From positions 17,695 to 81,694 of the forward strand of contig JACWAE010000075.1 in NCBI GenBank assembly GCA_014874385.1: 64,000 nucleotides of DNA, written 5' to 3'. A program made the translations under genes and the position numbers. Below, in pieces: positions 35,206-64,000 of this stretch. The notes under the pieces are model-generated. The model was not told the DNA's origin. It made no database searches and worked only from the letters and a program-made list of their open reading frames with translations. Origin of the DNA: Dehalococcoidia bacterium. Lineage in GTDB: Bacteria > Chloroflexota > Dehalococcoidia > SZUA-161. The first letter of the stretch is position 1. Every line of letters begins with the position of its first letter.

Positions 35206-36008
35206 CTGCCCTGCCTTTGTCCCAAAGTGGTAGAAGCGCTCTCGAGGTAGCTGCGGAGGCAGCGAGGCAAGCCGGCGAAACCCTCAAAACACATTTCCAG
35301 GAGAAAACGCAGGTAAAGTACAAGGGTCGAGCCAATATCGTTACCGATACAGACCTGCGTTCAGAGGAAATACTCAAATCGTTCCTGCTAGCCGAGTACC
35401 CCGACCATAGCATACTCTCTGAGGAATCTCAGGCTATCAATGGCAACTCAAGCTATAAATGGATTCTCGACCCACTTGACGGCACGAATAACTACTCCTT
35501 CGGCATACCCTTCTTCTCCATAGTAATCGCCCTCACCGAGGGGAAAGACGTTTTACTGGGCATTGTCTACGACCCCCTGCGCGATGAGATGTTCTCAGCC
35601 CAAAGGCGCAAGGGGGCTACCCTCAACAACTCGCCCATCCACGTCACCAGGAAAAAGACTGTTCGGGAGTCGCTCATCGGCCTGGACCTGGGCTATGTCG
35701 ATGAAAAAGGCCAAAAGTCGCTCGAGTTTATAACCTCACTCTGGCCAGAAATGTACGCTTACAGAATTATGGGCTCCGCGGCGCTGGGCATGGCTTACGC
35801 TGCCTGCGGACGGCTCGATATTTACTTTCATCTTCTGTTATACCCCTGGGAGCTAGCCTGCGGTCAATTGCTGGTAACTGAAGCCGGTGGGGTGGCGACC
35901 GACCTGGACGGCAAGCCGTTGAAAGTAGGGCAGGGCTCCGTCATCGCCTCCAACAAGGCAGTTCACGCCGATTTCCTCCGGATACTCAAAGAAAGAAACC
36001 TGGGGTAA
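35202..36008 (+). CDS. Inositol monophosphatase family protein
   Basis: ILSEES, WILDPLDGTNNYSFGIPFF, WELACGQLLVTEAGGVATD. Confidence 0.92.
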   Translation: MTALPLSQSGRSALEVAAEAARQAGETLKTHFQEKTQVKYKGRANIVTDTDLRSEEILKSFLLAEYPDHSILSEESQAINGNSSYKWILDPLDGTNNYSFGIPFFSIVIALTEGKDVLLGIVYDPLRDEMFSAQRRKGATLNNSPIHVTRKKTVRESLIGLDLGYVDEKGQKSLEFITSLWPEMYAYRIMGSAALGMAYAACGRLDIYFHLLLYPWELACGQLLVTEAGGVATDLDGKPLKVGQGSVIASNKAVHADFLRILKERNLG

Positions 36009-59808: not shown

Positions 59809-61130
59809 TTTCCCAACTGTTCCAGTCTCTTCTCGACCGATACAGCGTGGGCAATCAATCCTTCAGCCCGGGCGATAATTGCTGATGCCGGGCCGAGTGA
59901 ACGTAAATCCTTGTCGCTCAAGTCAATCAATATGGATACCTTGAGGAAATCCAGCACGCTCAGTGGCGAGCTGAAGCGGGCGGTTCTACCGGTGGGCATA
60001 ACATGACTCGGGCCCGCTGTATAATCGCCAATGGCTTCGGGAGCGCCGATGAAGATACCGCCGGCATGGCGAATGCGGTCAAGGTAGGAACGGGCATTTT
60101 TTACCATGAGGCAGAGGTGCTCGGGAGCATATAGGTTCACCAGTTTAATAGCCTCGTCCATATTGGTAACGACGACTATAGCGCCATTTTGCTCCAGAGA
60201 TTGCTTCGCAATGATGCGCCGCTCCAGTTTGGCAAGCTGACGCTTGATTTCCTCACCAACCTCATCAGCCAGGCGGGACGAGGTGGTGATGAGGATGGCA
60301 GAGGCCGCTTCGTCGTGCTCCGCCTGAGCCAGAAGGTCGGCGGCGCAGAAAACGGGGTTTGCCGAATCATCGGCTATGATAACGGTCTCGGTAGGACCAT
60401 GCAGCCCGTCTAGAGCTACAGTTCCGTAGACCTGCTTTTTAGCCAGGGTGACAAAGATGTTGCCCGGCCCGCAAATCTTGTCCACCTTGGGGATAGACTT
60501 GGTGCCATAAGCTAAAGCAGCGATAGCCTGAGCGCCCCCGACTTTGAACACGCGACTCACCTTCGCTATGTCCGCCGCTACCAGCGTGGGCGCGGGAACC
60601 GTGCCATCGGGGGCTGGAGGGGTCGCGATGATTACCTCAGGGACCCCGGCTACCTTAGCCGGTATCACTGTCATAAGCACAGTCGAGGGGTAATACGCCC
60701 TGCCTCCGGGGATATAGACCCCCACCCTCTCCATGGCGCTCAAGATGAAACCCAGCCCTCACTCAACAAAGTCCAACCCCAGCTTCTTCTTCTGAATCAA
60801 GTGGAATGCATGCACCCTATCGGCAGCCAGTCGGAGAGCGTTGACCAACTCCTTGTCAACCTTTTTATAGGACTCGGCGATCTCTCCTTTAGTCACCTCA
60901 AGCTGAGCCAGGCCCATGCCGTCGATTTTTCTGCCGAAATCTAAAAGGGCATGGTCTCCCCTGCTGCGCACCTCGCTGAGGATTCGCCGCACCGCCTCAT
61001 CAGGCGTAATATCCTCATCGAATATCTGCCTGATCCTCTGCTTGACGCCGGGCAAGGCCACAGCGAACTCGGCGGTAGAGTGCCCCAGCAGCAGAGATTT
61101 GGCAGCTTCCAGGTCTCGGATTACCTTCAT
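59805..61130 (-). pseudogene. hisD: Histidinol dehydrogenase, interrupted by one in-frame TGA (60759-60761)
   Basis: N-terminal part 60759-61130 and C-terminal part 59805-60743 lie in the same frame: ...[42 protein letters not shown]...; C-part carries GPGNIFVTLAKKQVYG, YTAGPSHVMPT. Confidence 0.9.
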
Positions 61131-61879
61131 TCCAGATACTCCTTGGCGGCTTTCATAGAATTTACTATAGACTGCTCGCGAAATGCCTGAAGCTGCTCAC
61201 GGGGAACCATCTTCAGAACCTGCTCGCGCCTTTCATCGAAAGAAGCAAAAAATGTCTCCCGTTCCTCAGGAGCTATTTGTCGCACCCAGATAAGGTACTT
61301 TTCAGCGAAGTGGTGAAAGTCCTCCCAGTTAGCTTTTCGGGTGGTAACCGTTAAGACGAACTCGCTCCACCTTTTCAGGTTGGAGGCGTCGATAAAGCTG
61401 ACGGCTACGCCGTCAGCCGAGCCATTAAGCTCAATCCGAATCACTGACATGTTCTTATTGTTGAGCCTTTCCGAGCGGTCAAGCTCGAATTGAAGCACCC
61501 GGTCCAGAAGATTAGCTATCGGGTTGCCTCCCACAGGCGACGACTTGCCAAAAAAAGGGCGATAAATTCTGTATATCCAGGCCTCATCGGTGACCAGATG
61601 GGAAAGATAACCGGCAACAAAGGACTTGGTCGCAGGGTTCAAGTCAGTGTTCTCGATAAGCTCAGGATGTGCTCGTAACATAAGCTTCATTCCGCTCTTC
61701 CCCTCCTCGCTCTCCAGAGGGAGGAAATGAGTCTCCTCCCGGCCGGCACCGACGAAAAATCGTATATCCGGCGCCGTAGAGCCGAGGTAGTAACTGCCCT
61801 TATTCCCATCAACGACCGGATGGTGTAGCCTCTCTATCGCTTCCTTTGCGATACCTAGATGCAGACAGATCGGAGGCAA
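61127..61879 (-). CDS. Zinc-dependent phospholipase C-like protein
   Basis: HLGIAKEAIERL, YYLGSTAPDIRFF, AGYLSHLVTDEAW; ATGA overlap with hisD start. Confidence 0.7.
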   Translation of the reverse strand: MPPICLHLGIAKEAIERLHHPVVDGNKGSYYLGSTAPDIRFFVGAGREETHFLPLESEEGKSGMKLMLRAHPELIENTDLNPATKSFVAGYLSHLVTDEAWIYRIYRPFFGKSSPVGGNPIANLLDRVLQFELDRSERLNNKNMSVIRIELNGSADGVAVSFIDASNLKRWSEFVLTVTTRKANWEDFHHFAEKYLIWVRQIAPEERETFFASFDERREQVLKMVPREQLQAFREQSIVNSMKAAKEYLE

Positions 61880-61891
61880 AAGACTCCTTTC

Positions 61892-63304
61892 TCAAGAAAC
61901 GCAGCTAGCCTCCATGCCTCTCCTCATAGTTTCAACGAGATAGGCTATCTTATCTTTCTTATCAGGCCGCCTCATAGCTTCGGTGTTCCCGATAAGACAT
62001 GCCGATGACTCAAACAGTGTATCTATTATCTTAAGATTGTGCCTGGCGATAGTTGAGCCGGTCTCAGTGTTCTCGATGAGGACATCGGCGTCCTCGGGCA
62101 GAAATGCCTCGCTCGCCCCCCAAGTAGGGATAAGCTTATATGGCGCCAGATGATTGTCATGGGCATACTTATCGGCGATATTGACATACTCCGAAGCTAC
62201 TCGCAGCGCGGAGTCCCTTTTCATTTTCCTTAAATCGTCCGTGCTTGAAACGCGCAAATCCTTACTGACCACAGCGACAATCCTCACCTTGCCGAAGCCA
62301 AGGACAAGCACTTCATCCACCGGACTGGAAGGGAATCGAAAGAGGTGGTCCCTCAGCCAGTCCCTGCCCGTAATAGCCAGGTCGAAATTACCATTGGCTA
62401 CCTGTTGAGGCATATCCTGAGGTCTGATCACCTTGACCGTCACCCCGTCAAGGTCGCTCCGCGGCCTGTTGCTGGTTTTGCCTGCATTATAACCCTCTAT
62501 TTTGAGGCCAGCCTTGTTCAAGAAAGCCACAGCATGGCGCTGCTGGTGACCATCAGGCAGCGCCAGACAAACCGAAGACCCTCTCATGGCTGCAGGCTTT
62601 GAAGCAAAGCCTGCTTCAATGGCAGAAGGCTCCTTGACATAAGATTTCACGGCTTCCCCTGTTGAGAGCGAAGCCAGAAGAGGGCTCAAGTTTTTTCTCT
62701 CCAGACTATCCCTGTTGGCAACCAGGTAAGCACTGCTTTCCAGAAGTGCAGCCACCGGAATCAGGCCCTGCTCCTTAAGCTTTCTTGATGAAGTCTCAGC
62801 GATTATCGCCAGCTCCGCATTCTCCGGTGGGTATACCCCGGCTGACCCCCAAACGGGGAATATCTGGAATCTCCTCAGCCGCTGCTTCAAGGCGAAGACC
62901 TCGGCCAAGTTAGGGTATTCACTGACGATACGCAGACTATCGTTGTGGTTTTTCCATGCCTCCGATGAGGAGTATCCCGACGACCTGGCAGCCACAGCGT
63001 ACAGGTTTCGCCTCCCATAGCCTAAATCTCGAACCTTGACCACAGCCTCGCTGCGGTATTTAGCTAAAAGCTCCTCCACCCAGTCAAGGCGGCAGATGCC
63101 CAGGTCATAGTTACCTATAGCCACCTGGATGGCGATGTCCTTCTCATGGAACACCTTCAGAAAAAGGCCAGAGGTTCCCGGGCACTGCGGCCTGTAGGAG
63201 CGGGAACCATCGCAGTAATCGCTGACGTTAAGACCCGCTTCTTTCAGCAAGTCCGCTGTGCTGTCTTGAAGTTGACCTTTGGGCAAGGCAAGCTTTACTT
63301 GCAC
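61892..63304 (-). CDS. hisG: Tandem two-domain ATP phosphoribosyltransferase (HisG-HisG)
   Basis: Domain 1 from LALPKGQLQDSTADLLKEAGL; domain 2 from LALPDGHQQRHAVAFLNKAGL and containing ADVLIENTETGSTIARHNL. Confidence 0.9.
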   Translation of the reverse strand: MQVKLALPKGQLQDSTADLLKEAGLNVSDYCDGSRSYRPQCPGTSGLFLKVFHEKDIAIQVAIGNYDLGICRLDWVEELLAKYRSEAVVKVRDLGYGRRNLYAVAARSSGYSSSEAWKNHNDSLRIVSEYPNLAEVFALKQRLRRFQIFPVWGSAGVYPPENAELAIIAETSSRKLKEQGLIPVAALLESSAYLVANRDSLERKNLSPLLASLSTGEAVKSYVKEPSAIEAGFASKPAAMRGSSVCLALPDGHQQRHAVAFLNKAGLKIEGYNAGKTSNRPRSDLDGVTVKVIRPQDMPQQVANGNFDLAITGRDWLRDHLFRFPSSPVDEVLVLGFGKVRIVAVVSKDLRVSSTDDLRKMKRDSALRVASEYVNIADKYAHDNHLAPYKLIPTWGASEAFLPEDADVLIENTETGSTIARHNLKIIDTLFESSACLIGNTEAMRRPDKKDKIAYLVETMRRGMEASCVS

Positions 63305-63996
63305 CTCGCCTCCTCAAGAAGCTTCAGTAACCCGGCAGGGGAGGACTTGAGCCGCTTTTTGCCACTCGACTGATCGAGCACCTCTATCCCTTCTCCACCG
63401 CGCATATTTACTACCCAGCGAAAATCAGCGGTCTCCCTGTAACCAAGGTCGAACTCAGCGATATAACCTGCGTCACGCAATTGACGGGCTAATGCCAGAG
63501 TGGGCTTGAGCCCTTCATCTTTCGCCCTGAGTAAAACCCTCTCTCGCCGCGGCACCTCTCTGGACAGTCCCATGAGCTCGTCAATATACAATGCGAACCC
63601 CGAGGCACAAATGTCCTTCCCCCCGACCAGGGGAATGAGTTCGTCGTATCGACCTCCTCCACCCAGCCTGCACCCTGAGCTATAGAACCCGAAGATAATG
63701 CCGGTATAGTACTCGAAGCCCCTCCCCGAGGTGAAATCTATCTGGTAGTCAAAACCCAAATTGGTCAGCAGGTTCGCAATCCTGGCAAGTTCATTCAGAC
63801 TGGGTTCGAGAGCAGGCAAAGATGAGCAGAAAACACCCCGCAGGTTTTCCACAAAGCCAGGGGAGTTCCCCTTCAAACCGAATAAGAGTTGCAGGTTCTT
63901 CCCCAGCTCAGGGTTCCCGCCCTTCAGGTCACCCAGCACACCCGGATTTCCCGAGAAGACCTGCTCCAGCACATCGGCCTCTTTCTCACCAGCCAA
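63295..63996 (-). CDS. hisZ: ATP phosphoribosyltransferase regulatory subunit / HisRS-like (possibly extends past the window)
   Basis: FDYQIDFTSGRGFEYYTGIIFGFYSSGCRLGGGGRYDELI (HisRS motif 2/3-like), located before hisG. Confidence 0.85.
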   Translation of the reverse strand: MAGEKEADVLEQVFSGNPGVLGDLKGGNPELGKNLQLLFGLKGNSPGFVENLRGVFCSSLPALEPSLNELARIANLLTNLGFDYQIDFTSGRGFEYYTGIIFGFYSSGCRLGGGGRYDELIPLVGGKDICASGFALYIDELMGLSREVPRRERVLLRAKDEGLKPTLALARQLRDAGYIAEFDLGYRETADFRWVVNMRGGEGIEVLDQSSGKKRLKSSPAGLLKLLEEARCK

Positions 63997-64000
63997 CCCC

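Follow-up and report, generated by a model that had tools for sequence, protein, structure and literature searches.

Do the two HisG-type domains that this locus encodes in one chain share the work of a single enzyme, or is one of them a dead companion of the other? The gene lies in a 64,000-nucleotide stretch of Dehalococcoidia DNA, called the window here. A preliminary description had read it as a fusion whose halves had reciprocally lost different catalytic motifs, with either a division of labour or one pseudo-domain beside one active domain as the outcome. The parts of the locus are given below, with residues numbered along the tandem chain and counts referring to 77 non-redundant tandem proteins.

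61892..63304 (-): tandem hisG-hisG gene encoding 470 aa; GTG start within the end of hisZ
62663..63304 (-): D1, first HisG domain, residues ~1-214; Arg56 equivalent retained, PRPP loop gone
62576..62662 (-): linker between the domains, residues ~215-243; pLDDT low at 224-239, dN/dS ~0.6 in the nearest pair
61895..62575 (-): D2, second HisG domain, residues ~244-470; has an intact PRPP loop but has lost the Arg56 equivalent
63200..63202 (-): D1 Arg35, corresponding to Arg56 of P. arcticus HisGS; R in 74/77 D1
62783..62794 (-): D1 TSSR at residues 171-174, where the PRPP loop would have TGxT; TGxT in 0/77 D1
62540..62554 (-): D2 DGHQQ at residues 251-255, where KGR(L) would stand; D and H in all 77 D2
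62468..62488 (-): D2 NAGKTSN, residues 273-279, aligned to the Arg56 region; no arginine, differs between relatives
62423..62425 (-): D2 Arg294, equivalent of Arg73; R in 77/77 D2 and 14/77 D1
62051..62062 (-): D2 TGST at residues 415-418, the preserved PRPP loop; all 77 D2 have TGx[TS]
63295..64000 (-): hisZ (regulatory subunit), 3' part; remainder lost at the contig end

The tandem gene is a single open frame, free of stops across both domains. The Pfam HisG model (PF01634) matched it in two stretches at 204 bits against a cut-off of 25.5, as did TIGR00070 (NCBIfam) at 237.5 bits against 75.75; scored separately, D1 reached 82.5 bits and D2 127.4 bits, each half above the cut-off alone. The halves are 30% identical to each other and are the sole HisG matches of the whole genome. 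The claim that one 470-aa frame holds two HisG domains is borne out by these scores, and the motifs quoted for it are present. By family models the protein is a HisG, and ATP phosphoribosyltransferase activity is predicted for it. PF01634 was the only Pfam family matched at E ≤ 1, and the C-terminal regulatory domain PF08029 was absent.

The GTG start of hisG-hisG sits inside the 3' end of hisZ, which adjoins it upstream. Although hisZ is broken by the contig end in the window, it is complete in relatives and lies upstream of the tandem gene wherever their loci reach far enough, in agreement with the earlier statement that HisZ is encoded next door. The HisZ proteins score under the TIGR00443 cut-off, and they owe their name to gene context and fold family; a separate hisS is present elsewhere in the genome. 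After hisG-hisG the gene order is a PF00882 protein, hisD, hisC and hisB. The PF00882 (zinc-dependent phospholipase C-like) gene (window 61127-61879, -) occupies the same gap between hisG-hisG and hisD in other branches of the class, and its product could be imagined as a putative histidinol-phosphatase; the same genome carries, near window 35241-35990, a gene of the inositol-monophosphatase family. The hisD gene has an in-frame TGA at window 60759-60761 (-), in the context LDFVE*GLGF. In the nearest relative (L032) hisD is intact, with GAT (Asp) at this position and several clustered base differences, and the TGA may be an error, strain variation or a recent inactivation.

A frameshift or a chimeric assembly could in principle have joined two hisG genes: the source genome is assembled in 118 contigs, contamination being 6.4%, and in one relative (G058, locus L139) D1 and D2 occupy two overlapping frames. 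The fused frame, however, recurs in dozens of independent assemblies, down to ~43% identity, and is under purifying selection, which makes an artefact exceedingly improbable; the survey of independent assemblies refutes the sequencing error fusing two ORFs that the preliminary description had raised. Among the named genomes searched we found 58 tandem relatives, nearly all matching the full 470 residues and all labelled Chloroflexi/Chloroflexota or Dehalococcoidia groups. Among 60 relatives of the genome, 51 had HisG, and in 37 of these there were two matches, nearly always in one frame. Across 294 genomes of the class that were at least 90% complete, 280 had HisG, ~159 with at least two matches and ~121 with one, a split counted by hand as matches per genome rather than as confirmed same-frame pairs. 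In a survey of 221 genomes of the phylum, genomes of other classes had one HisG match in nearly all cases, and only three genomes had two. Four single-HisG class mates that we examined (L003, L004, L005, L011) carry the long form with PF08029, so the class holds two alternative enzymes, the long form or the tandem with HisZ.

Several relatives depart from the usual arrangement. In G058 (L139 2328-3693) D1 ends in TAG and D2 could start at an overlapping GTG, either as a natural split or through a frameshift, and the motif asymmetry described below is unchanged. In G009 (L137 1691-3379) TPDSRLQTPD-like repeats are inserted in frame, both in the linker and within D2, and G317 and G399 each have three HisG matches, possibly a tandem plus a long-form HisG. 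Apparent frames of 640-752 aa in deep branches were rejected as larger fusions; their surplus length is read-through of GC-rich sequence ahead of the HisG start, which overlaps hisZ in a different frame.

Both domains are constrained. For five pairs, dN/dS was 0.125-0.142 in D1 and 0.065-0.157 in D2; in most pairs the values for D1 and D2 were ~0.12-0.16, and the linker was relaxed. D1 as a decaying pseudo-domain is thereby ruled out, as its dN/dS equals that of D2. In an IQ-TREE analysis of 99 rows, the D1 domains, the D2 domains and the single-domain HisGs were each split from the rest by one branch (SH-aLRT 99, 98 and 98). D1 and D2 have in common features that most single HisGs lack, namely E137 instead of K, W95 and a one-residue deletion at position 170. 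Read on an unrooted tree, these sequence data fit a single duplication-fusion event no later than the ancestor of these lineages, with mainly vertical inheritance afterwards and long-form genes instead of the tandem in other lineages.

What the two halves have kept was read from an alignment in which the separated D1 and D2 portions of the 77 tandem proteins were set beside 43 single-domain HisGs, that of E. coli among them, and the HisGS of Psychrobacter arcticus, the reference sequence of which is identical to PDB 5m8h. The PRPP loop (T180-G-x-T183) is intact in every D2 and in no D1. In the window D2 reads ENTETGST and D1 reads AETSSRKL, just as had been described for the loop in both halves. 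The Arg56 column shows the opposite pattern, with arginine in 74 of 77 D1 domains vs 1 of 77 D2 domains, the one being an ambiguous alignment. In 73 of the 77 proteins Arg56 is confined to D1 and TGxT to D2. Mean column entropy follows the same division: 0.80 bits in D2 vs 2.21 in D1 at the PRPP loop, and 2.29 in D2 vs 1.54 in D1 around Arg56. All 43 single-domain HisGs have TGxT, 33 of them with an aligned Arg56 in the same chain, and most of the remaining 10, E. coli included, have an arginine one column away. Since loop and arginine occur in one chain in single-domain HisGs and are split in the tandem, the parts have been divided between the halves. The three D1 domains without Arg56 have S, S and K. 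An apparent lysine at this position occurs in G030 (L029 1486-2901, -), in family f16, which includes several single-contig genomes.

Reciprocal loss therefore does occur, but not at the motif first named. It is the Arg56 equivalent that D2 has lost, and its diverged start, correctly described as sequence, is not decayed: with D and H invariant in 77/77 relatives, the PDGHQQ start is, on the evidence of conservation, a new motif and not erosion. The KGR motif itself is loosely kept on the other side, with KG-x in most D1 domains and its arginine (R32) in 35 of 77, vs DGH in every D2. The Arg73 column is arginine in all 77 D2 domains and in only 14 D1 domains, most of the others having H, N, Q or S, and two residues further on, at position 75, K or R is present in 76 of 77 D1 domains. 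D1 is variable at the PRPP loop and at C115/K116; other D1 positions are kept, among them E137 (74/77), E163 (57/77) and D/E172 (77/77).

AlphaFold2, run on the full chain with an alignment of 63 tandem proteins (A1), gave a model with a pLDDT of 89.7 and a pTM of 0.87, disordered only at residues 224-239. A pTM of 0.87 for a two-domain chain implies that D1 and D2 are placed confidently relative to each other in the prediction, their equality with a HisG dimer being a separate matter. The best PDB match found by Foldseek was to P. arcticus HisGS chains, with a TM-score of 0.87 by target length, over one half.

In P. arcticus HisGS, Arg56 crosses the dimer to the PRPP pyrophosphate in the partner subunit, and the R56A mutation lowers activity 42-fold (PMC9734150); Arg73 contacts the ATP gamma-phosphate across the dimer (PMC10998830). 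In the same enzyme R32A lowers activity 25-fold and R56K is poorly active. We consider it likely that the tandem protein is a HisG pseudo-heterodimer, covalently joined and sharing a single composite active site, a reading that takes its cis and trans residue roles from this one solved homolog, ~22% identical. In an ordinary HisG dimer each site combines the PRPP loop of its own subunit with Arg56 of the partner. If the D1-D2 pairing is equivalent to such a homodimer, D2 would give the loop and D1 the arginine, forming a single composite site per chain, and the mirror site would be dead, its loop gone from D1 and its arginine gone from D2. The composite-site model predicts such a pattern, in which one site is deprived of loop and arginine alike and the other keeps the two. 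D2 His253 may replace Arg32. HisZ, whose gene lies just upstream, would serve as activator and make the enzyme subject to feedback by histidine, and with one chain in place of each HisG dimer the assembly would be (HisG-HisG)2(HisZ)4, with two active sites instead of four. As Arg56 acts across the dimer in the P. arcticus structure, D1 by analogy probably still contributes to catalysis. The proposal of one pseudo-domain and one active domain was right that the PRPP loop is lost in D1 and kept in D2, but is too simple, given an arginine that is supplied in trans in P. arcticus HisGS (PMC9734150).

Two observations weigh against the composite-site model. The three D1 domains without Arg56 count against it, including the one with lysine, given the poor activity of R56K in P. 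arcticus. Arg73 would be expected in D1, yet it is invariant in D2 and present in only 14/77 D1 domains. The K/R at D1 position 75 may or may not substitute for it; otherwise Arg73 may have a different role in the tandem, or the D1 site may still bind nucleotide. This last option leads to a rival reading in which the active site is in D2 and the D1 site has become a regulatory site, binding a ligand such as ATP, ADP or AMP with the help of D2 Arg73 across the interface. It would explain why all 77 D2 domains keep a residue that, in the plain one-site model, serves a dead site, it accords with the trans contact of Arg73 in P. arcticus, and several D1 positions (E137, E163 and D/E172) are still conserved. 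Against this, the D1 cleft is variable at the loop and at C115/K116, and Arg73 could owe its retention to a structural or cis function; on balance we regard a regulatory D1 site as unlikely.

Many enzymes retain inactive paralogous halves as scaffolds, and the loss of the D1 PRPP loop would also suit a D1 that is merely a structural or HisZ-docking pseudo-domain, with D2 self-sufficient or paired with the D2 of another chain. Retention of Arg56 in 74/77 D1 domains and its disappearance from nearly all D2 domains would be unexpected if D1 had no role in catalysis. D2-D2 pairs would be without Arg56, and the pTM of 0.87 favours packing of D1 with D2 within one chain. A purely structural D1 is very improbable, and the composite site remains the preferred reading.

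How does the tandem compare with known systems? With the short-form HisGS + HisZ enzymes of P. arcticus, A. baumannii, L. lactis and T. maritima it has in common the fold and family, a hisZ neighbour, the PRPP loop, the trans arginine and the lack of a C-terminal regulatory domain. Short-form HisGS, however, is a homodimer of ~210-230-aa chains with KGR and two sites per pair, joining HisZ in a hetero-octamer HisZ4(HisG2)2, whereas the tandem is a fused two-domain chain with unequal halves, an invariant DGH in D2 and one predicted site. Because of the HisZ neighbour and the absence of PF08029 we file it as a short-form variant, although its two fused, diverged domains depart from the single-domain homodimer of that form. 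The long-form HisGL enzymes (E. coli, M. tuberculosis, C. jejuni; also L003-L005 and L011) have the PF01634 catalytic domain in common with it, but they combine one such domain with PF08029 and do not need HisZ, while the tandem has two catalytic-type domains, hisZ and no PF08029. A third ATP phosphoribosyltransferase architecture, a (HisG-HisG)2(HisZ)4 hexamer with half the usual active sites, a site rewired by DGH for KGR and an allosteric, vacated D1 site, is a speculative extension to which we give a low probability. Outside the family, the C1 and C2 halves of mammalian adenylyl cyclase form a fused pseudo-dimer with one surviving composite site. The logic is the same, homologous halves complementing one site as the mirror site degenerates, but fold and reaction are unrelated to those of the tandem HisG, and the likeness is an analogy only.

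Within the pathway, hisA, hisF, hisB and hisD likewise arose by tandem duplication and fusion of one module (PMC7284861), and their elongation is ancient and universal, whereas that of hisG is confined to one class as far as searched. Our search of the open-licence literature, with subscription literature outside its scope, returned no description of a tandem or fused HisG or of a Dehalococcoid ATP phosphoribosyltransferase. An earlier elongation analysis found no internal repeats in hisG (PMC7284861), which would now join the his genes with elongation. ATP phosphoribosyltransferase, which opens the histidine pathway, is a textbook example of allostery, and the trans role of Arg56 has been argued from the structures and mutants of one species. 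In the tandem, one half apparently carries Arg56 and the other the PRPP loop it serves, a separation maintained over a bacterial class that would amount to a natural experiment on that role. The composite-site model is also directly testable, since the tandem allows mutations to be made in one half only.
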